From NCBI GenBank assembly GCA_016199985.1, contig JACQFQ010000004.1, positions 62,001-126,000 on the forward strand: 64,000 nt of DNA, read 5' to 3'. The notes beneath the pieces were generated by a model. It had not been told where the DNA came from. It made no database searches and was given only the letters and a program-made list of their open reading frames with translations. This DNA is from Verrucomicrobiota bacterium. Lineage in GTDB: Bacteria > Verrucomicrobiota > Verrucomicrobiia > Limisphaerales > UBA11320. Positions within the stretch are counted from its first letter, which is position 1. Every line of letters starts with the position of its first letter. Below are positions 23,170 through 35,951 of this stretch, piece after piece. A program made the position numbers and the translations under genes.

Positions 23170-26100
23170 CTAAAAATTAACACGAAGCATTGCCTCAAAC
23201 GTCCGCCCACGCGGTAGTTCCGCCGTCAGGTTCAGTGGATTTAGCCGGTAGTCGGTATCGAACAGATTTAGCAGGCCCAGACGTATTTCGGCTCGGCGGC
23301 GCGCGAAACGGTAGCCTAGCATCAGGTTGTGCTGCCAAAAGTCGTCGCTCGGCAGCGACGGGGTGTAGCCAAGATTTTCCTGATGATGCCATGCCGATTC
23401 CCATTGCGTGAAAAAGCCGGACGGCAGATGCAAATTGAGCGCGAAAGAAAGCTGGTGAGCCAGGGCGCGGTTGTTTTGTTCGAGACGGCCCAGGTTTTGC
23501 GCCCCTTTGGGGATGTCGGGAAATTCGCCGATGAGTTTCGCCTCGCTCAAGCGGTAACGCGCGCCGACGGAAAAAAAGTCGCCGAGCAGTTGTGAAGCAT
23601 AGACGGAAACATTTCTTTCCTGAAAAGCCAGGGTCTGTCGCGTGCTGCTGGGCGAATCGGGGCGCCTGAAAACGAACTGGTTGGTCAGCACGCCCACCGC
23701 GCGCGTGCCGTCGGAAGCGAGCCACTCGGCCTCGACGCCGAAAAAGGTTTTGCCATGCATCGACTGGTCAAACCCCACGCTGGCCGTTTCAAATCGCGCG
23801 GCGGGCAGCAGGCCCGCGACGCTTTCCGGGATCAGGCTGCGGAAGGCTTGGTTGAAGCCGCCGACCTGCGTTGGTTCGAGCCGGATGCTGTTGTCCGAGA
23901 AAAGCCCGCCGAGCGAACGCGTGTAGCTGGCGCGCAGCAGCCCGTGTTCCCACGGCGCGAGCAGAATTCCGGCCTTGGGCGAAATGCTTTCCCGCGACGT
24001 TTCGCGCGGCGACACCGGGGCGAAATCCGCGTTCTCGGGGAATTCCAGATGGTCGAACGCGACGCCGCCGATGAGGCTCAACGTGTCCAGCGCCTGCCAA
24101 GTGTAGTAGCCATAGGCGCTGGAGCGCGAAAAATCCCCGCCGCCGGATTGCCGCGTGACCACGCCTTCCAGCGCGCGGCTCAACGCATCAACGGAATCCA
24201 CGCGGCCAGATTGCGAGCGCCCGCCGAACACGAGCGAGTGACGCGCGGTCTTGAAAACCTGCTGCAATTCCAGCGAGGCAACCCGGAAGTGGCTGGAATA
24301 GTTGTTGGTGAACGGCGGGCCGACGGGCGGCGACTCAAGGCCAATCGTCTGGCCGCCGGATTGAAACAAAAAAATCTGGTCGCTGTTCGGATCTAGCAGG
24401 GTCAGCCGGTCATCGAGATGCGACGCGAGCAGCAGCGTGTGAATTCCCGGCGACCACTCTCGATGCCAGCCCGCGTAAATCGTCGGTTCCTGTTTCTCTT
24501 CCACGCGAAACCCGGGCGTCGCGCTGGCGGGGTTGTAAAGCCGTGAAATATCGCCGGCGTTGGAGTGAAAGTCCCCCGCTTGCAAATACAAATCGTCCTT
24601 CGGGCTGACGCGAAGCTTCATCGTCAGCGCAAAGTTGCGCTGCTCGTCGCGGTTGTTCACGCGCTGTCTGTTGAACTGCCGCAGCGCCGTGTCGAACGCG
24701 TAGCTGAAATTGTCTAACGCGCCGAACGCCGTCGCCGTCTCGCTCCAATCGCCACCGCTGCGATAGGTCGTCAGCGAACTTGCGCCGAACGGCCGCGCGT
24801 CGAAAAAGCGCAACCGGTCGGACTGCGACAAGACCTGCGACAAATTTCCCGCGCCCGGCGGCGCCAGCAGGTTCGCCACGAGCAGTTCGCTCTGCCGCGC
24901 CGTTTCAAGCCGCAGATCAAACCGATTCAAGCTCTGCTCCGCCGCGTAGCTGTTCGCGAGAAGCAGATGCCCGGAAAAATTCGCGTAGTCCTCGCCCACC
25001 GCGCGCCCGGCGACGTGGCGGCTCACGTCGCTGAGGCCGGCGTCGTCGTAGATCACCGCGAGGTTCGCGCTACGCACGGCCTTGTCGCTGTCGAGTTGCC
25101 CGCGCGAACGGAACGCGGCGCGGTTCTCGTTCTTGTCGTAGGACGTTTCGAGGTCGCGGACGGCGGCGTTCAACTTGTTTTCCTGCCAGAGACGCAGCGC
25201 GGAGTAGAGCCACGCGGTCGGGTCGTTCGCGTCGAGTTGCTTTGCGAGACGAAATTCCCTTTCAGCGGCCTGCGCGTCGCCGAGTTCGCTCGCGGCCTTG
25301 CCGAGATAGCTGCGGAACAAACCGCGCTGCGGTTCCAGGGCGGCGGCGGCCTGAAACGCGGCGCGAGCCTCGGTGAAATGTCTTTCCCGCAACAAACACA
25401 GACCGCGACCGAGCCACGCGGAGCCAAGGGCGGCGTCCATTTCTCTGGCGCGGTCGAACGAGTTTTGCGCGGCGGAAGTTTTCCCGTCATCGAGCAGCAC
25501 GAAACCCTGCAACGCGTGCGCGGCGGCGAGGCGCGGGGAAAGTTCCAACGCGCGTTTCAGTTCGCGCAGCGCGGCATCGCGGTTGCCAAAGGTGAATTCC
25601 AGTTCCCCCAGCCGCGCGTGGGCGAAACCAAAATCCGGAGCGAGTTCGGCGGCTTGTCTGGCGGCGATACGGGCGTTCGGCAAGTCCGCGACGGCCTGGA
25701 GCGACCAGCTTTGCGCGAGCAATGCGGCGGAGCGCCGGCCTCCGGCTCGGCTTGCCGCGGCTTTATCAACGAGTCCAGCCGGCGGCCGGCGCTCCGCTTC
25801 GCCGCGCGTCACGGCGATGAGTTCGCGCAACGCGGCCGAATCAGGATGTTCCGGCGCGCCGATCAGCAGACTTTCCGCTTCGCCCACACGGCCCACCGCG
25901 AGTTCAAGCTGCGCGCGGAAAAGTTTTGCGCTCCCGCTGTCGGGCCGCAGCGCGGCGGGCCAGCCGGCGAGCGCGGCGAGCAGATCGCCGGCGCGGTAAT
26001 TCTTCAGCACAGCGCCAAGCGCGACCTGTTCAGGCGGATCGAACGAAAGCTCCGCCGGATTGACGATGCCGGGATAGTAAAGCGCCCATTGGATTTTGGC

Positions 26101-26979
26101 CGTGGCGTTCACGAGCGCGGTGCGCCGCGCGGGCTGGCCGGCGACGAGCCGCAAATCCTCGCCGCGCGACAAATTGATTTCTTCCGTCGCGGACTTGAGT
26201 GAAACCAAACCGTCGATCAGAGCGAGGTGAACTTCGTTTTGCCCGCCGGCTTCGAGCAGAAACTCCGTGCCTCGAATTGCGCCGGCGGCCAACGGCGTGT
26301 CGAATTCCACGTCGGCGGGCTTCTCGCGGTTGAAAAAATAGACCGCGCCGCGCAGGAGTCCAAAGCGTTTTTTCTCCGCGTTGCGCGGCGGCAAGATCTC
26401 GATCGTCGTCAGCTCGTCGAGCCGCACGATGCTGCGGTCGGATAGCTGCACGGCGGCGCGGCTCCGGGCGCGCGTGCGGATTTTATCGCCGGCCTTGAGC
26501 GCGACGCCGACGGAAGCGACCTGCCAGTTTGTCGGAGCGGCTGAAGACAATTCCACCGTGCCCGCCGCCTCGATGAGCGTGCTGGCGGAATTCGTCTGCG
26601 CCAATGACGTGAGGACGCTGAGCAGCAGCGCAAACAAGGCGGCGCAGAATCTCAGAAAACTGATTCTTTGAGCAGCGGCTTGAAAGCAATCGGAGGCGTT
26701 TGCAATTACGGCGCGTTCTCCCTCGCCCTCAATCCCTCTCCCGCTGGGAGAGGGAAGCGGCAAACGACGCGCCTCGTGATTCGAATGCGCGTCGAGCCAA
26801 CGCCGCCGTGGATTTTCCGACAAAACGACCAACGGTTCTCCCTCTCCCAGCGGGAGAGGGTCGAGGTGAGAGAGAGCAGCGGTTGGAAGCCCCAACGCGG
26901 CCTTTCGCAAGGTGCGGCGGCGTGAACGCCGTGCGCCATCCGGCGGCAAACACTTCAATGATATTGGCTCGGCGGACAT
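23170..26979 (-). CDS. FecR-TPR-outer membrane beta-barrel fusion protein
   Basis: A very large envelope protein. Reading from 26979 (1269 residues), the first ~100 residues are unlike protein and overlap a palindromic repeat. A signal peptide (FLRFCAALFALLLSVLTSLAQ) sits at about 106-126, so the real start is probably near 26660, although no ATG is there. Next come a FecR-like domain (about 140-290: GDKIRTRARSRAAVQLSDRS, AAGAIRGTEFLLE), TPR-like repeats (about 325-605), and a TonB-receptor-like barrel to the C-terminal Phe (VNF). No TonB plug is evident. A palindromic element adds about 24 residues within the TPR part. It may couple periplasmic sensing or scaffolding to an outer-membrane pore; function unknown. 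Confidence 0.75.
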   Translation of the reverse strand: MSAEPISLKCLPPDGARRSRRRTLRKAALGLPTAALSHLDPLPLGEGEPLVVLSENPRRRWLDAHSNHEARRLPLPSPSGRGIEGEGERAVIANASDCFQAAAQRISFLRFCAALFALLLSVLTSLAQTNSASTLIEAAGTVELSSAAPTNWQVASVGVALKAGDKIRTRARSRAAVQLSDRSIVRLDELTTIEILPPRNAEKKRFGLLRGAVYFFNREKPADVEFDTPLAAGAIRGTEFLLEAGGQNEVHLALIDGLVSLKSATEEINLSRGEDLRLVAGQPARRTALVNATAKIQWALYYPGIVNPAELSFDPPEQVALGAVLKNYRAGDLLAALAGWPAALRPDSGSAKLFRAQLELAVGRVGEAESLLIGAPEHPDSAALRELIAVTRGEAERRPPAGLVDKAAASRAGGRRSAALLAQSWSLQAVADLPNARIAARQAAELAPDFGFAHARLGELEFTFGNRDAALRELKRALELSPRLAAAHALQGFVLLDDGKTSAAQNSFDRAREMDAALGSAWLGRGLCLLRERHFTEARAAFQAAAALEPQRGLFRSYLGKAASELGDAQAAEREFRLAKQLDANDPTAWLYSALRLWQENKLNAAVRDLETSYDKNENRAAFRSRGQLDSDKAVRSANLAVIYDDAGLSDVSRHVAGRAVGEDYANFSGHLLLANSYAAEQSLNRFDLRLETARQSELLVANLLAPPGAGNLSQVLSQSDRLRFFDARPFGASSLTTYRSGGDWSETATAFGALDNFSYAFDTALRQFNRQRVNNRDEQRNFALTMKLRVSPKDDLYLQAGDFHSNAGDISRLYNPASATPGFRVEEKQEPTIYAGWHREWSPGIHTLLLASHLDDRLTLLDPNSDQIFLFQSGGQTIGLESPPVGPPFTNNYSSHFRVASLELQQVFKTARHSLVFGGRSQSGRVDSVDALSRALEGVVTRQSGGGDFSRSSAYGYYTWQALDTLSLIGGVAFDHLEFPENADFAPVSPRETSRESISPKAGILLAPWEHGLLRASYTRSLGGLFSDNSIRLEPTQVGGFNQAFRSLIPESVAGLLPAARFETASVGFDQSMHGKTFFGVEAEWLASDGTRAVGVLTNQFVFRRPDSPSSTRQTLAFQERNVSVYASQLLGDFFSVGARYRLSEAKLIGEFPDIPKGAQNLGRLEQNNRALAHQLSFALNLHLPSGFFTQWESAWHHQENLGYTPSLPSDDFWQHNLMLGYRFARRRAEIRLGLLNLFDTDYRLNPLNLTAELPRGRTFEAMLRVNF
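25727..25797. repeat. Palindromic element inserted in frame in the TPR region
   Basis: 21-base inverted repeats (25727-25747 and 25777-25797, one mismatch; arms begin GCGGAGCGCCGGCC) around a 29-base spacer. It encodes about 24 Arg/Ala/Gly/Pro-rich residues within the FecR-TPR-barrel protein, at about residues 395-418, without breaking the frame. Confidence 0.8.
26724..26870. repeat. Paired palindromic arms at the 5' end of the FecR fusion gene
   Basis: Two oppositely oriented copies of a CCCTCTCCCGCTGGGAGAGGG hairpin arm (near 26733-26753 and 26839-26860), each with a CCTC-rich flank, separated by about 85 bases. Related CCCTCTCC hairpins occur at 34.5-34.6 kb. The element covers the apparent N-terminal leader of the FecR fusion gene. 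Confidence 0.75.
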
Positions 26980-27449: not shown

Positions 27450-29213
27450 CTACTCAATCCGCACGCGGAAAAAGTTGGCGCCCGGCGGGGCGATGTTCGT
27501 GGAAAAATCTCCGCCGTCGCCGGTGAACGGCGCGGCCCATTGCGTCCACGGGCCGGCGGCGTTGGTGGCGCACAGGATGGTGTAGCGCAGGTCCGCCGCC
27601 GTCGGAAATGCGAAGTTCACCGTGCCCGCGCTTTTGGCTACGGTGCAGTTCATCGGCGTGACGACATGGACGATGTTGGTCACGTTGACAGCGCCAAGGT
27701 CGTTCGTGGTGGTGAGCGTGTAGGTGGCGGCGCCAGCGCTGGTGACGTTTTGCAGCGTAAGCACCGGCACGGTGACGTTGGGGATGTTGGCGCCGTTTTT
27801 CTTCCAGCGGTGAACCAGCACCGGCGCACCGCTGATGGCCGGCGCGAGCGTGAGATTGGCCCCGACGAAAATGGTCTGCGTGGCGACGAGGCTCGGCGTG
27901 GTGGGTGGCAGCGCGGGCTGATTGGTATTGAGGTTGTAATTGAGCCACGCGCTGCCGCGCGCACCGGCGACGCCGTCCACGACGACGACGTATTGGCGCG
28001 ATTTCACCGCCTGCACGCTGACGCGCGACGGGCCGCGCGCCGCGCCGAGGTCGTTGTTGCACGCGAGTGAAATGAGATTCGTGTAACTCGTGAGCGCGCC
28101 GTTGAAGGTATAGACTTCCATCACGGTGTCGTAGGAGCTGCCGATGGTGTCGAACGTCATCGTGCCGTTGGCGGGCGGCTGATACATGAGCCAGTAAGAC
28201 GCGCCGGGGGGGTTGCCGCAGTGCGCCGGCTCGGCGGGATCGGTCGTGGCGAATGTGGTGTTGAAGACCTGGCTGCCGTTGTAGCCCCGGACCACGCCAA
28301 TGAGGGAGCTCATCGAAATCATGGGCTGAATCCTTTTTGTCAGGCCGCCAAAACTCTTGGCGCTGCCGTCATCGCCGATCAAAGGGCTGTCGGGCGTGTC
28401 GAGGATCTTGGGGCGGGCCAGCGTGTTGGAAGCGCCCTCGGTGTTGATCTGGATTTCAACAGGCACTGAGTAGTAGGAAACGCCGCCACCGACGACGACC
28501 CGCAGCCGGTAAAACCCCACATCAGTGGCGGAAACATTTGTGACGACCAAGTTGGTCGCAAAGGCGTTGTCAATTTCCCTGCCGTTCATTTCCCACTTGT
28601 AGGCGCCGGCGGCGGCATTGGTGACAGTGAACGCGAGCGACAGGGTGTCGCCCAGCTTCACCGCGCGGTCGGCGAGTGAGGAGACGATGAGCGGCGGCGC
28701 GGCTGCAAGCGGCCGCGTCTCCCACTGGAAATCAATTTCGCCCACGGCCCCGCGATAGCCGTCCACGGCGATCTCATACTGTTGGCCCGCCTTCACGCCA
28801 AAGCGGATTTCGCTCTCGAATTCCAGCCCCTCAGCGTCATCCGAGCGCGCCACTTCTCGCAGGCCGACAAAGCTGACGTTGGTCGAGGTGAACTGATACG
28901 CCGACAGCAGCGTGTCGAAGCCGCTCGCCTCGGTCTTAAAGGTGACGATGCCATTGGTGACGGCGACCCAGGAAATCCACAGCGAATGTCCGCCCGGCTT
29001 GCCGCCGTGGCGGGGTTCACCGGCCTCCACCGTTGCGGCTCCATTGCTCTGAACGATCTGGCCGGCGAGGTTGGTGACCGTGATGCGGTTGGCGAACAAA
29101 TCCGACAGGGTCTGCGCCGGAGCGCGGAGGGCGGCGGTGGAAAACAGCACGGACCCAGCGATCACCCACGCAGCGATGAAGCGCGGGCGGCGGACGGTTC
29201 CGTTCGTTTTCAT
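27450..29213 (-). CDS. Secreted protein with Ig-like domains
   Basis: A 587-residue exported protein. The N-terminus has a signal peptide (RFIAAWVIAGSVLFSTAALRAPAQ). Two jelly-roll-like stretches of the pre-peptidase or DUF-type pattern (GGHSLWISWVAVTNGIVTFKTEASGFDTLLSAY, GQQYEIAVDGYRG, and a second copy with SYDTVMEVY and QYVVVVDG) alternate with Ig-like domains (YKWEMNGREI...VGFYRLRV and HRWKKNGANIPN...AATYTLT). The last ~60 residues form the terminal module seen in Verrucomicrobia secreted proteins (LRYTILCATNAAGPWTQW...FFRVRIE). It is probably surface-bound or secreted and mediates adhesion or binding; no catalytic site was seen. A repeat element directly follows the stop. Confidence 0.75.
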   Translation of the reverse strand: MKTNGTVRRPRFIAAWVIAGSVLFSTAALRAPAQTLSDLFANRITVTNLAGQIVQSNGAATVEAGEPRHGGKPGGHSLWISWVAVTNGIVTFKTEASGFDTLLSAYQFTSTNVSFVGLREVARSDDAEGLEFESEIRFGVKAGQQYEIAVDGYRGAVGEIDFQWETRPLAAAPPLIVSSLADRAVKLGDTLSLAFTVTNAAAGAYKWEMNGREIDNAFATNLVVTNVSATDVGFYRLRVVVGGGVSYYSVPVEIQINTEGASNTLARPKILDTPDSPLIGDDGSAKSFGGLTKRIQPMISMSSLIGVVRGYNGSQVFNTTFATTDPAEPAHCGNPPGASYWLMYQPPANGTMTFDTIGSSYDTVMEVYTFNGALTSYTNLISLACNNDLGAARGPSRVSVQAVKSRQYVVVVDGVAGARGSAWLNYNLNTNQPALPPTTPSLVATQTIFVGANLTLAPAISGAPVLVHRWKKNGANIPNVTVPVLTLQNVTSAGAATYTLTTTNDLGAVNVTNIVHVVTPMNCTVAKSAGTVNFAFPTAADLRYTILCATNAAGPWTQWAAPFTGDGGDFSTNIAPPGANFFRVRIE

Positions 29214-29421
29214 TTTTTCCAGGCTGCTAGACTAGACCGAGACCCGGTTTTGTTCAACCCCGCGATTTTCTCCGCCATGCGGCGGAAGCCCACACGCCGG
29301 CGAAGCTGGAACGGCCAACTCCGCCGGCGTCGGGACACGGCCAGGGCGCGGTTCGCAAAACCGGGATTGGCCCGGCGTCGCAGGAGCGGGAGCGACTCCC
29401 CGCGCTCCGGCCGTCCGATTG

Positions 29422-31209
29422 TTACGGCAGTGTCAGCCGGTAAAACTTCATGCCCGGACTCATGGGCAGCGTGACCTGCGCGTTCGTTCCCACCACGGAA
29501 ACCGCGCCGCCGGAACCCACCCAGTTGTTCGTCGAGCCGAAGCCGATGGACTCCTCCAGCACGCAGCCCGGCGTGTTGGTGGCCCAGCGGAGCGTGATGG
29601 AACTCAGCGTGTGTCCGTGAACTTCCAAATCCGGCGGGGCCTGGATGAAGTTCGCAACGAGCGAGCGGTTGAGCGAAACCGGGAACTGGTAACTCGCCGC
29701 CGTGCTCACGACCTTGTCGTTGTCCGTCCATTGCTTGAACCGGTAGCCGGTCTTGGCCGTGGCGGTGACGGTGCAGTGGAAGCCGTTCGTGTAAAGCCCG
29801 CTGCCGCCGGTGTCGCCTTTGTCGAGGGGATAGGCCACCGTGTCCACCGTGCTATGCGGCGGCAGCGCCTGGTTGGCGGCGGTGATGGCAAATGTGTAGG
29901 CGCGCTCGAGGCTGGCCTGATTCGTCGCGCTGACGCGCACAGTGAACGTGAACACGCCCGTTTGCGTCGGTGTGCCGGAAAACTCGCCCGTGGTCCGGTT
30001 GAACGTCATGCCCGTCGGCAGCGTGCCGGTGTTCGTGCAGGTGAACGGCACGCCCGCGATGACGATCGCTCTTGCCGGATACGCCACGTTCACCTTGCCG
30101 TCCGCGATGCGCTCGGTCAGGCCGATCGCGAGCTCATGATCGAACGCCGACATCTGCGCGCCAAGGTATTCGCCCACCACCACCACGACGGAATAATCCT
30201 TGCCCGCGCCCTCGTTCACGCCGTGAATGCCGTCGGCGGCAACCTGGGTGGCCAGCGCTTCCTGCGTCGCCAGGTCTTTCGGGCCGACATACTGGTAGAA
30301 TTCATAGCGCCGCGTGATGACCTCATCGCCATGGGGCAATTCTTCTTGCCCGCCTTGGATGCCGCCGCCACCGCCACCGCCGCCGCCACCGCCACCGCCA
30401 CGGCCACCATCGCCGCCGCCGTATTCTTGCTGGAGCAAATCCCATTCAGATTCCACTTCATCCGGCTCGCCGTTGCGCCAAGTCTTGTCATCGGGAAAAT
30501 CCAAGTCATCCGAGATCAGGTCGCGCAGCTTGATTTTGCGGTTCGTGTGCGACGTGGTGACGATGGATTTCGTCCAAGTGGCCGGGCCGAAGCCTTCCAG
30601 CGGCTCAACGCGCTCCGGCGGAGGCGGCAAGGCGGCCTGAACCTGCCCCAACAGGCCCGCCACCGGCGGATAATAATTGAAAACGGGCGTGGACACCTGC
30701 ACCGGCGGTCCGACCACCAGTTGGCCGGCGCCATCGTCCAGCAGCCAGTTGTATTTGATCGTCGTCGGCAGGCCGGAATAGCCGACGCCAAAATGCTCCC
30801 CGCCAAAATTGATCGAAGGATTCACGAACGAATGTCCCATGGTCGGCGCAATCGGGTTTGTGGGAATCGCCGTGTAGGCGGACCAGTGCCCGTTGGTATA
30901 AACGCCGGCGTAACGGATGAAACAATTCGTGTGGCCGGGCACGCTCGTCCGATCCTCGCGGATCGCCGGTGTGCCGTAATGATTGTAGCTGTAGCAATAG
31001 GTGATCTGCCGGCTGCCGCAGTCGTCAATTTCGATCTCGAAGCCGTAACAGATGTTGCTCGTGTCGTTCACGCAATCGAAGTTGTTCAGCGTGCCATAGG
31101 CGATGCTCGCCTGGACGGAACCGGCGGCGCAGGCCAGGGCCAGCGCGGCCACGGCGCCCGCCACGCGGAGCCTGCGGCCCGCGCGGTGCGTGGTTGGTTT
31201 ATGTTTCAT
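29422..31209 (-). CDS. Secreted protein with Gly-rich tract, putative-Ig and InlB-repeat-like modules
   Basis: A 595-residue exported protein; the signal peptide is RLRVAGAVAALALACAAGSVQA. The N-terminal part is rich in Cys, Tyr and Asn with no family recognised. A long glycine run follows at about residue 275-290 (encoded by CCGCCA-type repeats at 30360-30415). Next is a putative-Ig module (GTLPTGMTFNRTTGEFSGTPTQTGVFTFTVRVSATN), then a divergent InlB B-repeat (VTATAKTGYRFKQWTDN...LVANF), and a C-terminal module ending MKFYRLTLP. ATG 31209 is chosen because the signal peptide starts there. It probably acts at the cell surface; function unknown. Confidence 0.72.
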   Translation of the reverse strand: MKHKPTTHRAGRRLRVAGAVAALALACAAGSVQASIAYGTLNNFDCVNDTSNICYGFEIEIDDCGSRQITYCYSYNHYGTPAIREDRTSVPGHTNCFIRYAGVYTNGHWSAYTAIPTNPIAPTMGHSFVNPSINFGGEHFGVGYSGLPTTIKYNWLLDDGAGQLVVGPPVQVSTPVFNYYPPVAGLLGQVQAALPPPPERVEPLEGFGPATWTKSIVTTSHTNRKIKLRDLISDDLDFPDDKTWRNGEPDEVESEWDLLQQEYGGGDGGRGGGGGGGGGGGGGIQGGQEELPHGDEVITRRYEFYQYVGPKDLATQEALATQVAADGIHGVNEGAGKDYSVVVVVGEYLGAQMSAFDHELAIGLTERIADGKVNVAYPARAIVIAGVPFTCTNTGTLPTGMTFNRTTGEFSGTPTQTGVFTFTVRVSATNQASLERAYTFAITAANQALPPHSTVDTVAYPLDKGDTGGSGLYTNGFHCTVTATAKTGYRFKQWTDNDKVVSTAASYQFPVSLNRSLVANFIQAPPDLEVHGHTLSSITLRWATNTPGCVLEESIGFGSTNNWVGSGGAVSVVGTNAQVTLPMSPGMKFYRLTLP

Positions 31210-31513
31210 GTGAATCAGGTTTGGTTTCGGCCCGAAGCTCCCCGCGACGCATATCACGATTCAAGCCGGTTGTAGGAACGTTTAGCAAAGGCCATGCCAG
31301 CACCGGCCTGAGGAGCTGTGGAACCAACCGACTACCGGCCATCCGGCGCGTGAGCTGTCGGGGAACGACAACAATGCGGCAATTACAGGAGTTTGTCGCA
31401 GGCTTTGTTGGGCAAGCGCGTTGCGGTGAGATCCCGGCGAAGGCGGCGGACCGGCGCGACTCCGCTCAAACCCGGAACATGTTCCGCAAGCGGAACAGAG
31501 GGAACAAACTGTC
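31210..31513. other. Intergenic region upstream of the putative-Ig/InlB-type gene
   Basis: About 300 bases without a supportable gene, between the start of the secreted protein gene and the second MITE-like element. It includes a short palindrome GGAACATGTTCC (31475-31486), a possible protein-binding dyad; the evidence is only the symmetry. Confidence 0.35.
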
Positions 31514-31645
31514 GTGGCACAGGCGTCCCGCCCGCGAGTTTCCTTGGAATACGAACAACGAAGAAACAATGATTTCCAACTTTGTCGCGTTGTTTCTTGG
31601 TTGTGAAAAAAAGTCAGGGACGAACAGGCGGGACGCCTGCGCCAC
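31514..31645. repeat. MITE-like element, copy 2, abutting a stop codon
   Basis: Outer arms GTGGCACAGGCGTCCCGCC (31514-31532) and GGCGGGACGCCTGCGCCAC (31627-31645) match in 18 of 19 positions as an inverted repeat. An inner inverted pair AACGAAGAAACAA / TTGTTTCTTGG lies within. The right arm ends on the last base of the response-regulator stop codon. It shares CGAACAGGCGGGACGCC exactly with the copy at 27.4 kb. Confidence 0.82.
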
Positions 31646-33051
31646 TATTCTTTTTCCACACGCAGCTCCGGCCATTTTTCCAACCGGCGCAACAACGCCT
31701 GCGGGGACATTCCAAGCTTCGTCGCGGCGCGGCGGATGCCGCCGTTGCACTCGCGCAGCGTGTCGCGGATGAGCCGATACTCCTGCGTCTCGACGGGCGT
31801 GAGGTTTCGTTCCGCGGGCGGCGGCTCGTCGGACATTTTTAGCGCGCTTGCTGTCCCAGACCCCGGACCCGATCCGCCAGACCCCGCCCCTCGTCCGCTC
31901 CAGTTCGCGTCGAGCGTCAGCCACTTCGCGTCCTCGGAGGTCTTGAGCAATGAGCGTTCGAGAATGTTGCGCAGCTCGCGCACGTTGCCGGGAAAATCGT
32001 GCGCGGAAAGCTTCGCCATTTCTTCCGGCGTGATGAGCGGCTTGGCGCGACCGTATCTTTTTGCAAGCTGGCCGAGCAGCGTTTCCGCGATGCGGGGAAT
32101 GTCCGCGCGCCGCCGCCGCAGCGGCAGCAGTTCGATGTTGAACACATCGAAGCGATAGAGCAAATCTTCGCGGAATGCTCCGGCCTTCACCGCGTCCGCG
32201 AGATTTTTATTTGTAGCCGCGATGAAGCGTCCGTTGAAGGACTGCGCCTCGGTGCTGCCCAGCGCGCGGAATTCCCGCGCCTCGATGAGCCGCAGCAGTT
32301 TTGATTGCAGCGCAAGCGGCACCTCGGCGATTTCATCGAGAAACAAACTGCCGTTCGCCGCCGCCCGGACGAGGCCAGCGCGCTTGCGATCCGCGCCGGT
32401 GAACGCGCCGCGTTCCGCGCCGAACAGTTCCGATTCAAACATCTCGTCCGGCAGCGCGGCGCAGTTGACGGCGATGAAGGGCTTATCCCCATTGGGAAAG
32501 CTCAACTCGTGCAGCACGCGCGCGGCGAGGTCCTTGCCCGTGCCCGTCTCGCCGGTGAGCAGCACCGTGCTGGCGGCGTGCCTGGAAGCCTGCCCGAGCT
32601 GCCGCAGCACGTTCCCCATCGCGGAGGATCCGCCGAAACATTCGGCGGCGCTCTCCGGCACGGCGCGCGAGTTGAGCCGCAGCTTCGCGCGAGCGAGCAT
32701 CGCCGCGAGCGCGTCGGCGGAAACGGGCTTCGTGAGGTATTCAAACAGCCCGTTGCGTGTGAGCGCCACGGCCTCGCCCAGGTCGGGAACGCCCGTGATC
32801 ATTACGACGGGCGCGTCGGGATTGCGCCGTGAAATCGTCTCAAAAAGATCGTAGCCCTTGCCGTCGGGCAGGTGGTTGTCGAGCAGCACGAGGTCGAAAT
32901 TCTTCGCCGCGACGTGCTCGCGCGCGGCGGCGATAGTGTGCGCGAGCGTGACAAGTCCGCCGCCTTCGCGCACGACGCCGCCCACCACCGTGGCGAACGA
33001 CACGTCGTCGTCCACGATGAGGCAGGAAAAATTTTCAACGGATTGGCCCAC
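31645..33051 (-). CDS. Sigma-54-dependent response regulator (NtrC family)
   Basis: A 468-residue transcription activator. It has an N-terminal receiver domain (SCLIVDDDVSFATVV, phosphoacceptor in LVLLDNHLPDGKG), a central AAA+ domain with Walker A GETGTGKDLAARVLHELS, the sigma-54 contact loop GAFTGA (ERGAFTGADRKR), Walker B SLFLDEIAEVPL and sensor FIAATNKNL, and a C-terminal Fis-type helix-turn-helix (GGIRRAATKLGMSPQALLRRLEKW). It is expected to drive promoters with -24/-12 elements. It lies 32 bases downstream of a CHASE2 hybrid kinase, its likely partner. The C-terminus ends normally despite the repeat directly behind it. Confidence 0.94.
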   Translation of the reverse strand: MGQSVENFSCLIVDDDVSFATVVGGVVREGGGLVTLAHTIAAAREHVAAKNFDLVLLDNHLPDGKGYDLFETISRRNPDAPVVMITGVPDLGEAVALTRNGLFEYLTKPVSADALAAMLARAKLRLNSRAVPESAAECFGGSSAMGNVLRQLGQASRHAASTVLLTGETGTGKDLAARVLHELSFPNGDKPFIAVNCAALPDEMFESELFGAERGAFTGADRKRAGLVRAAANGSLFLDEIAEVPLALQSKLLRLIEAREFRALGSTEAQSFNGRFIAATNKNLADAVKAGAFREDLLYRFDVFNIELLPLRRRRADIPRIAETLLGQLAKRYGRAKPLITPEEMAKLSAHDFPGNVRELRNILERSLLKTSEDAKWLTLDANWSGRGAGSGGSGPGSGTASALKMSDEPPPAERNLTPVETQEYRLIRDTLRECNGGIRRAATKLGMSPQALLRRLEKWPELRVEKE

Positions 33052-33083: not shown

Positions 33084-35951
33084 CTACTTCAAGCAGCGAC
33101 TCGCCGCCTCAAGCAGCTCCGCGAGCGCAAACGGCTTGGCCAGTTCGGTGACGCCGTGCAGTTTGGCTTCCGCATCCGCGCCAATGAGAATCACCGGCAG
33201 CGTGGCATTTGCTTTGCGGATTTCGGCGATGGCCTGCGGCCCGGTCATCACCGGCATCGAATTGTCCGTGACGAGCAGGCGGATTTCTTCCGCGTGCCGC
33301 TTGAACAGCGCGACGGCTTCCGCGCCGTTCACCGCTGTGAGCACGCGGTAGCCAAACTCGACCAGTTCCGCCCCGACGAGGTCGCACAGAGCCTGCTCGT
33401 CGTCGGCGAGCAGAATCAATTCGCCGTGGCCGCGGGGAAAACTTTCGACGGTCTTCGCTTTTTCCTCGGCGACAAATCCCAGCGCGCACGGCAGGAAAAC
33501 TTCAAAGCTTGCGCCTTGGCCCGGTTCGCTCTCCACGCGCAAAAATCCGCCGTGCGCCCGCACAATCCGCGCGACCGTCGTCAGCCCGATGCCGGTGCCC
33601 TGCTCCTCGCCCTTTGTCGTGAAGAACGGTTCAAACATCTTTGCCTTCACTTCCGGCGTCATGCCCGTCCCTGTGTCGGAGAGGAGCAGCGAAATGAATT
33701 TCGCATTTGGAGCGCCGAACAGCCGCTCGGCGCGTTGGTGGTGGTTCAAGCGAGCCGGGCCGGGGCTCGGCGTTCCGATGTCCGCCCGCAACGCTTCCAT
33801 TTCCGCCTCGTCGAACTCCACGTTGTCCGCCACGAAGGAAAGTTTGCCGCCGCTCGACATCGCGTCGCGCGCGTTCACGCAGAGGTTCAACAAAACCTGA
33901 TGAAGCTGTGTGAGGTTGCCCCGCACCGGCCACAGGTCTCGCGCCACGAAGGTCTCCACGAAAATGCTTTTGGGAAACGTCTCGCGCACCATTTTTTCGA
34001 AATCCTTGATGACCGGGCCGAGTTCGAGCCGCTCGAATTCGCCGCCGCGTCCGCGCGCGAACAGCAAAACCTGCCGCACCATGTCCGCGCCGCGGTTCGC
34101 GCTGTTCTCGATGAGCGAGAGCAGTGTTTTGTCCTCCTCGTTCGCGGCTTTCCGCCGCAGCAACTGCGCGCCGAGCAGCACGGGCGCGAGCGCGTTATTC
34201 AGGTCGTGCGCCATGCCGCCGGCCAGGGCGCCGATGGTGTTCATGCGCTGCGCGCGGAGAAACTGCTGCTCCAGATTCTTCTGCTCCGTGATGTCGCTGT
34301 TGATGAGCAGCAATGCGCTGGGCTGATTTGTCTCGTCGCGGATGAGCGTCCAGCGACTCGCGGCGATGACGATGCCGCGGGTGTTCGTCCGCAATCTGAT
34401 TTCGCCGTTCCACTCGCCGTCGCGGAGCGCGACGGCACGGGCCTCATCAGCGGTGAAGGGATCGGCGGAGAAAACGTCGGAAATTTCCCAACGCGCCGCT
34501 TCCGACTTCCCTTTCCCCTCCGAGGAGAGAGTGATGGAGGGCGAGGGGTGGGCGGGTTCGTTGGAGGCCATGCTTGCCTTCTGGTGTCCTTCAACAGTCG
34601 CGCCCCTCACTCCGGCCCTCTCCCCTTTCAGAGGAGAGGGAGAAACGTTCGCCGCGCCAAACAATCTCTCCGCGCTCGGATTCGCGTAAAGAATTCTTCC
34701 CTCAAGCGACTGCACCAAAATGGCATCCTGCGCCTTGTCAAGCAGCGCGGCCTGTTCGCGGATTTTGGCGTCGGTGATCCTTTTTGCGGCCTCTAGTTTT
34801 CGCCGCGTGAGAAACCATTCCTGAAACTGCCAGAGCCACGAGCCGAACAGCGCGGCGGGAATCTGCGCCGCGACGATGGCCAGCCACGGAAACCAGACGT
34901 TCGCAGAAAACACGGCGAGCGAAGCCGCCAGCACCGCCACCGCGCCGATGCCGGCCGCCACAGTGGCCGCCGCGGGCCGCAGCCACGGCAGACCGCCACC
35001 GAAGATCAACGCGGCAAGAAGCAGAAGCAGATTTTCGCCGGTGTTTGAATGGCGTTTCAACGCGTCGCCGCGCAGCCAGTTCAGCAGTTGCGTGGCGTGG
35101 ACTTCCACGCCCGGCATGAAAAATTCCTTGTTGGCCCACGAGTGGAACGGGTTGCGGAATTCATCCTGCTTGGCATCCATGAAGCCGACCGTGGGTCGCG
35201 CGCCGATGAAAACGATCTTGTCGCGGAAAAAACCCGACGGCAGCGCGGCGGGATCCAGCGCCTCGCTGTAACTGACGTGCGGCAGCGTGATGGCCGGGCC
35301 GTAGTAGCGCACCCAGAGTTCGCCGCCGCTCATATTCGTCGCGCCAAGGAAACGCGCGGCGGCGAGGCTCAAACTCGCCGTCCGTTCCCCGCCGAACGCG
35401 GGCAGATGACGGCGCACCACGAAACTGTCGTCGACTTCCAGCGCGGCCACGCCCCATGCGGCGGCGGCGTCCGCGAACAATTTCTCGGGCGGCCGGAGAG
35501 TGGCGATTCGCGCGCGCTCGGCGGCGGCGGATGTCGCGTGCGAATTCTTGTCGTTGTGCTCGGCCGCGAGGACGGCGCGGGAATTTTTTTTCAGCGCGTC
35601 GGCCAGCGCCGCGTCCGCCGCGGGATTATCGCCCGGTGAATCGAAGAGAATATCAAACACCGCGGCGCGGGCCCCGTCGGCGGTGAGGCGGTCCAGGAGT
35701 TGCGCGTGGAACTGGCGCGGCCAGCGGTCGGCGGGATTCTGTTTCGCCAGCAGGAACGACGCGAGATCGAGATAGATGATGACCACCCGGTCGTCGGAAA
35801 ATCTTCCCCCGCTGATTTGCGACAGCGAGTGCAGCAAGTCGTAGCTGGCGGCGGAAAATGTTTCCTTCAGCGCGACGCCGAGCAGCGTGACGCCCGCCGC
35901 CAGCAACAGAGCGACGAAGCAGCGGGCGCGGGTGGTCTGCGTCAGAGCCAT
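33084..35951 (-). CDS. CHASE2-PAS hybrid sensor histidine kinase with C-terminal receiver
   Basis: A 955-residue membrane sensor. An N-terminal transmembrane segment is followed by a CHASE2 extracytoplasmic domain (VVIIYLDLASFLL, AAVFDILF, FFRDKIVFIGARPTVGFMD), a cluster of transmembrane helices at about 320-390 and a PAS domain (DAILVQSLEGRILYANPSAERLFG). The kinase core has its H-box in GGMAHDLNNALAPV (near 583) and ATP-binding motifs NLCVNARDAM, LSDTGTGM and GTGIGLTTV. A receiver follows (LILLADDEQAL, LLVTDNSMPVMTG). About 50 residues within the PAS and 25 within the ATP-binding domain look like in-frame repeat insertions. Signals may pass to the adjacent NtrC-type regulator. Confidence 0.92.
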   Translation of the reverse strand: MALTQTTRARCFVALLLAAGVTLLGVALKETFSAASYDLLHSLSQISGGRFSDDRVVIIYLDLASFLLAKQNPADRWPRQFHAQLLDRLTADGARAAVFDILFDSPGDNPAADAALADALKKNSRAVLAAEHNDKNSHATSAAAERARIATLRPPEKLFADAAAAWGVAALEVDDSFVVRRHLPAFGGERTASLSLAAARFLGATNMSGGELWVRYYGPAITLPHVSYSEALDPAALPSGFFRDKIVFIGARPTVGFMDAKQDEFRNPFHSWANKEFFMPGVEVHATQLLNWLRGDALKRHSNTGENLLLLLAALIFGGGLPWLRPAAATVAAGIGAVAVLAASLAVFSANVWFPWLAIVAAQIPAALFGSWLWQFQEWFLTRRKLEAAKRITDAKIREQAALLDKAQDAILVQSLEGRILYANPSAERLFGAANVSPSPLKGERAGVRGATVEGHQKASMASNEPAHPSPSITLSSEGKGKSEAARWEISDVFSADPFTADEARAVALRDGEWNGEIRLRTNTRGIVIAASRWTLIRDETNQPSALLLINSDITEQKNLEQQFLRAQRMNTIGALAGGMAHDLNNALAPVLLGAQLLRRKAANEEDKTLLSLIENSANRGADMVRQVLLFARGRGGEFERLELGPVIKDFEKMVRETFPKSIFVETFVARDLWPVRGNLTQLHQVLLNLCVNARDAMSSGGKLSFVADNVEFDEAEMEALRADIGTPSPGPARLNHHQRAERLFGAPNAKFISLLLSDTGTGMTPEVKAKMFEPFFTTKGEEQGTGIGLTTVARIVRAHGGFLRVESEPGQGASFEVFLPCALGFVAEEKAKTVESFPRGHGELILLADDEQALCDLVGAELVEFGYRVLTAVNGAEAVALFKRHAEEIRLLVTDNSMPVMTGPQAIAEIRKANATLPVILIGADAEAKLHGVTELAKPFALAELLEAASRCLK
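33700..33775. repeat. Hairpin-rich insertion in the kinase ATP-binding domain
   Basis: Two adjacent hairpins, GCGCCGA/TCGGCGC (33712-33718, 33727-33733) and CGAGCC/GGCTCG (33751-33756, 33764-33769), lie between the N box and G1 box of the histidine kinase. The roughly 25 encoded residues are not expected in this family. Confidence 0.5.
34506..34645. repeat. Palindromic element inserted in frame in the PAS domain
   Basis: Two oppositely oriented CCTC-rich arms: near 34510-34550, and 34601-34645 with hairpin CCCTCTCC / GGAGAGGG (34616-34623, 34633-34640). They belong to the same family as the arms at 26.7-26.9 kb. The element encodes about 50 residues starting PSPLKGERAGVRGA and leaves the kinase frame intact. 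Confidence 0.8.

Follow-up and report, generated by a model that had tools for sequence, protein, structure and literature searches.

The window, that is, the whole 64,000-nt stretch of DNA analysed here, contains a hybrid sensor kinase gene in which a palindromic repeat element interrupts the region coding for the PAS domain without closing the reading frame (Table 1). The kinase ORF has no stop codon at any point, element included, and the Pfam PAS matches of its product end at residues 432-436, directly before the insert. The bounds of the element were set by BLAST against an independent copy in G541, a relative's genome (G000 denotes the genome of the window, the other G numbers those of relatives, and f2 the family of G541, which belongs to the same order), the two copies being 75.5% identical over 139 nt (E 1.6e-23). 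A preliminary description of this DNA had placed an in-frame repeat element within the PAS domain at 34506-34645 and had stated that the kinase frame remains open; the first claim is borne out by the match to the independent copy, which puts those coordinates right to within 3 bases, and the second by the absence of stops from 33084 to 35951.

Table 1. Features in and around the kinase gene, in positions of the window
Feature	Positions	Strand	Basis
Host kinase, CHASE2-PAS-HisKA-HATPase_c-REC hybrid sensor kinase, 955 aa	33084..35951	-	Pfam; homologues
In-frame palindromic element, 139 nt, about 46 codons, PSPLKGERAGVRG...SSEGKGKS	34504..34642	-	BLAST to G541 copy
First REP-like hairpin, on the 5′ side of the element as read on the coding strand	34616..34640	.	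CCCTCTCC N9 GGAGAGGG, exact
Second REP-like hairpin of the element, degenerate, inverted orientation	34509..34531	.	2 mismatches to hairpin pattern
Segment of the kinase HATPase domain in which about 23 residues are additional; repeat elements in relatives at the same site	33705..33785	-	Alignment
Sigma-54 response regulator, adjoins kinase, acquired block	31645..33051	-	76.6% to G541, 49.5% to congener G002; Pfam
Ig-domain protein, acquired block	27450..29213	-	62.4% to G541, 38.0% to G002; Pfam
FecR/TPR/TonB-barrel ORF, acquired block	23170..26979	-	71.1% to G541 from residue 109 on, 45.1% to G002; Pfam
Second copy of the family, inverted hairpin pair, upstream of the conserved part of the FecR/TPR/TonB ORF	26717..26874	.	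Pattern, BLAST, DNA fold z -9.0

The element is an imperfect palindrome in which two inverted REP-like hairpins flank a linker; its copies begin with CTCCCTC, end near AAGTC and bear the inner tag GGGGTGAGGGG. Exact CCTCTCC..GGAGAGG hairpins were located at 26735-26753, 26841-26859 and 34617-34639. The kinase element had been described as sharing its arms with an element at 26.7-26.9 kb, and the arms do match, but the linker of the 26.7 kb pair differs. A search of the genome for the arms recovered both window elements and almost nothing beyond those two, and BLAST with the 140-nt unit likewise found the element at these two places only. A looser own-genome pattern search with 2 mismatches returned noise (19/18 matches versus 23/23 in the reversed control), and further hairpins on C54 and C75 were rejected, being single hairpins without the remainder of the element.

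When folded as DNA, five other copies with the conserved linker form long hairpins (z -3.8 to -7.3) and four more distant copies also form hairpins (z -5.1 to -10.3), whereas the kinase copy of the window yields z -0.66 and no long hairpin. The palindrome of the window copy is largely decayed and its frame is still open; the decay is not complete, because the segment with its flanks remains more stable than shuffled sequences under RNA parameters (z -2.92). Covariation among six copies is weak, with 2 pairs changed on both sides, a count reached by 22 of 500 shuffles, and an Rfam search gave no match at the gathering score.

In an order-wide search for the kinase, 23 of 320 genomes had a match with E below 1e-120, and an alignment of 27 rows was assembled from 24 loci of this search, own gene included, and three congeners. 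At the PAS site, about 46 residues are missing from the three congeneric kinases, whose best segments are 48-51% identical. Among the 26 rows that cover the PAS region, the element is present in two (G000 and G541), other extra residues occur in two (G407 and G542), and nothing comparable was found in 22. Homologues thus side with the preliminary description, which had treated the segment as an insertion: G541 shares the element and, since 22 of the 26 homologues covering the region have no insert there, the segment is to be read as derived relative to them.

Relatives of the element in other genes and genomes

Six copies share the linker, and they lie in the kinase PAS domain (G000, G541), the kinase HATPase domain (G541, G542), TsaD (G542) and a TlyA-family methyltransferase (G541). 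All six are read on the same strand and in the same frame, with no internal indels over the 45-46 codons compared. This frame is open in 6/6 copies, and 5/6 also have one or more open frames on the reverse strand, so stop codons alone do not dictate the frame. TsaD is typically an essential protein encoded by a single-copy gene. Its insert is placed after the HHEAH motif and before SGGHT, between which a solved TsaD sequence, presumably of T. maritima type, has few residues; the TsaD of G550, 83% identical to that of G542, carries a shortened copy of the element at the same site.

Copies with other linkers were found in frame in a DUF1592-type protein (G434) and in FeoB (G495). The host genes recognised by Pfam/NCBIfam comprise TsaD, TlyA-family, DUF1592-type, FeoB, tyrosine recombinase (XerC/D-like), histone-deacetylase-like, glycosyltransferase, DUF2851 and 2-phosphosulfolactate-phosphatase-like genes. 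Single hairpins in genes use other reading frames, and near-full-length copies are not always coding, one in G195 (L111) having no spanning ORF and one in G554 (L223) only a short ORF. In G541, a gene for a di-haem cytochrome c peroxidase has another in-frame hairpin pair (L185:1157-1303), which is read in a different frame.

The intragenic location was quantified in a score-ranked sample of 16 copies from G541 and G542, defined by BLAST coordinates and excluding the three f2 kinase copies. Nine of the 16 lay inside an ORF running at least 40 codons on both sides, seven of these nine being Pfam-recognised genes, versus one of 20 copies in an ORF and none of 20 in Pfam-recognised genes in the G195 sample (Fisher p 0.0014 for 7/16 versus 0/20).

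The 140-nt unit was matched in 18 of the 25 genomes searched, with 2 matches in G000, 0 in each of four congeners, 47 in G541, 35 in G542, 43 in G466 and 69 in G195. A 20-base core pattern, with at most 1 mismatch allowed, is present in 60 of 384 genomes of the class, most places being found in G195 (77+47, 124), and its reversed control had 0 matches among the entries listed; the arms and core are not a chance match. The order-wide DNA search scored just 2 candidates per genome and is not a census. Viral contigs had no match to one 21-base pattern of the element.

Affinities of the kinase block

The kinase is 69% identical to that of G541 versus 44% to that of the congener G002, and the four block genes (23170-26979, 27450-29213, 31645-33051 and 33084-35951) are syntenic with their relatives in G541; block genes in other f2 and in f104 genomes fall in between, at 49-77% identity. 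The FecR/TPR/TonB ORF probably has its true start near 26655. A 618-aa ORF without a Pfam match (29419-31275) separates two genes that stand close together in G541.

In the kinase tree, built from 24 of the 27 rows after three of less than 850 aa were dropped, G000 is sister to G541 (support 98/98), and forcing G000 together with two congeners was rejected (p-AU 4e-111; G004 dropped, long branch). Another f2 row, G071, was placed elsewhere, together with congener G002, so the kinase gene has more than one line of descent. Of the flanking genes, BioF is 61-70% identical to congeners versus 56-58% to f2, and MetK 90-92% to congeners (three of four with a match) versus 76-79% to f2. By sequence comparison, the BioF and MetK flanks are best taken as native and the kinase operon as acquired horizontally. 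If the kinases of the congeners were paralogues, as they could be, the notion of a replacement would be weakened, but not the affinity to f2. The origin of the gene in another family, and the element as a recurrent coding insertion there, lay beyond the reach of the preliminary description.

Interpretation of the element and alternative explanations

The preferred reading, with a probability of about 0.8, is that a non-autonomous, REP-dimer-like palindromic element of ~140 nt was inserted into the kinase PAS domain in f2 and is carried as an open 46-codon stretch coding for a predicted loop. The insertion relative to homologues, the relatedness to copies in other genes, the shared frame and the affinity of the operon to f2 are the parts of it backed by sequence, together with a PAS fold that is modelled as intact around the insert. 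The element would have inserted once, within this other family of the same order, and would since have been kept as an open and presumably translated stretch. It may have spread as a hairpin mobilised in trans by some enzyme, and in-gene insertions would survive only if the frame is kept and a loop is hit, helped by a proline/glycine-rich, stop-free frame. The window copy is best read as a fossil, because its palindrome largely decayed while its frame stayed open; it would have arrived by horizontal transfer and been retained for doing little harm. Proteins appear to gain a flexible 46-residue peptide from the repeat and to stay intact, and a new function for this peptide is possible.

Rickettsia palindromic elements (RPE) are described in PMC10969869 as palindromic repeats of about 150 bp that have entered unrelated genes in frame and code for a conserved peptide. 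The present element has in common with them the in-frame conserved peptide in unrelated genes (here kinase, TsaD and TlyA-family), a likeness of layout, and differs in coming from another phylum, in being GC-rich and in being built of two inverted REP-like hairpins. PMC3733652 reports intragenic REP monomers and dimers of the GTAG/CGTC families in Opitutus terrae and others, also in Verrucomicrobiota, more than half of the intragenic inserts being dimers or groups, encoding 20-30 residues. The element likewise lies within ORFs, but no terminal unpaired GTAG/CGTC tag was seen in its copies, read by eye, and no RAYT link was found.

A broader proposal, put forward tentatively and at somewhat less than even odds, is that a Limisphaerales lineage hosts a palindromic mobile coding cassette unlinked to a transposase, which would have decorated proteins repeatedly in genes that then spread horizontally, as an independent parallel to the Rickettsia elements. 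Because the frame of such a cassette has no stops, even core enzymes could survive an insertion that keeps the frame. Most known examples of palindromic inserts read in frame come from Rickettsia, besides scattered REPs, and a 2024 review regards the same process in other prokaryotes as conceivable (PMC10969869). Here another phylum has recurrent cases (TsaD and TlyA-family genes among them), with insert-free kinase homologues for comparison, which makes the passage from selfish DNA to protein testable with natural replicates, and the insert peptide, if translated, would be moving between families inside a transferred operon. Literature searches on intragenic or Verrucomicrobia/Limisphaera REPs and palindromes, most subscription papers being outside their scope, brought up no description of the element family among the papers listed, and a search for the insert peptide found no paper.

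The element is unlikely to be a REPIN that is intragenic by accident, REPINs being REP dimers mobilised by a REP-associated tyrosine transposase (RAYT). A REPIN is an inverted REP doublet with a spacer forming one hairpin, proposed as the replicative unit and described in PMC3116915 as extragenic and RAYT-associated. The element resembles it in that two inverted REPs and a spacer fold as one hairpin in nine other copies, the window copy being decayed, and short Y1 transposases are present in f2 genomes, 70 Y1_Tnp matches having been found in 12 genomes (10 in G541, 8 in G195 and 3, all weak, in G000). However, the 25 Y1 loci examined out of these 70 had no good element match within 500 bp; one good match lay about 700 bp off, and three loci had 3-mismatch matches only. 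Many of the Y1 genes examined were flanked by inverted 14-mers of other kinds, several containing TAGC, and RAYT flanking was not found for the f2 copies examined, the intragenic proportion of which (9/16) also differs from the REPIN pattern, in contrast to that in G195 (1/20). The element does contain GGGGTGAG, fitting the motif GGGGWSAS that occurs in the inverted repeats (TIR elements) flanking TIRYT transposases according to PMC3733652, but this motif lies within 500 bp in only 5 of the 25 Y1 loci, some of the occurrences being intragenic. No signal of target-site duplication, a mark of MITEs, was detected, the shared flank word averaging 4.3 nt versus 4.16 in mismatched pairs (10 copies, most of them old-looking). 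The element thus behaves in the manner of an RPE or of a REPIN, but its membership in the RAYT-linked REPs is not supported.

An adaptive module, in which the peptide or an mRNA hairpin tunes kinase signalling or translation, is distinctly unlikely. The insert has been in frame since the split of G000 and G541, comparisons with G000 have a third-position excess, and inserts occur at two sites of the same kinase in several lineages. Against this stand relaxed constraint, a disordered model and the same unit in unrelated enzymes.

The pN/pS between G000 and G541 is 0.63 in the insert (45 codons), 0.33 in the rest of the kinase (910 codons) and 0.34 in the flanking codons, with similar pS in insert and rest (0.43 and 0.49); the value is high and not unique, since among 173 overlapping windows from other parts of the kinase the five highest are at 0.68-0.84. 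These values fit a constraint that is relaxed, not absent, and an insertion that predates the G000/G541 split.

For the PAS-to-HATPase part of the window kinase, an AlphaFold model (23 sequences; mean pLDDT 74.1) has confident PAS strands and helices and pLDDT <50 for the insert, at model residues 55-102, so that the insert is predicted as a disordered loop in an intact PAS fold. The repeat nature and the open frame given in the preliminary description are supported, as is a plausibly preserved fold, and the kinase may still signal, as that description suggested. Foldseek with the kinase model retrieved the expected histidine kinases, the TM-scores over the query being about 0.26-0.34, and was uninformative on the insert, as was a TsaD model from 2 sequences (mean pLDDT 33.9).

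A chimeric or misbinned contig, with an element foreign to the genome, is very improbable: the genome's only two copies do both lie inside the acquired block, but BioF and MetK, on either side of the block on the same contig, are closest to congeners, and positions 16-64 kb have no clear GC step in 2-kb windows. That the segment is an ordinary ancestral variable PAS loop, repeat-like by composition only, is scarcely credible, for although length variation is common in this region of PAS domains and G407 and G542 also have extra residues there, 22 of 26 homologues show no counterpart, the similarity of the DNA to copies in unrelated genes extends through all 139 nt and so takes in the linker, and the same-linker TsaD and TlyA-family copies largely refute it.

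Inserts at the two kinase sites

At the HATPase site, the element is present in two of the 27 rows (G541 and G542), other extra residues occur in two (G000 and G407) and none in 23. G407 (L079) carries an apparently unrelated, repeat-like 99-nt insert at both the PAS and the HATPase sites, the two resembling each other, and the PAS site of G542 has a 78-nt stretch with a weaker resemblance to them. More than one kind of insert has thus been accepted at these two sites. The extra segment at the HATPase site of the window kinase is not called a repeat, because it has no second copy within the window and phmmer aligns part of it with CckA. The sequence RAERLFGA in this segment partly resembles the PAS flank SAERLFGA.
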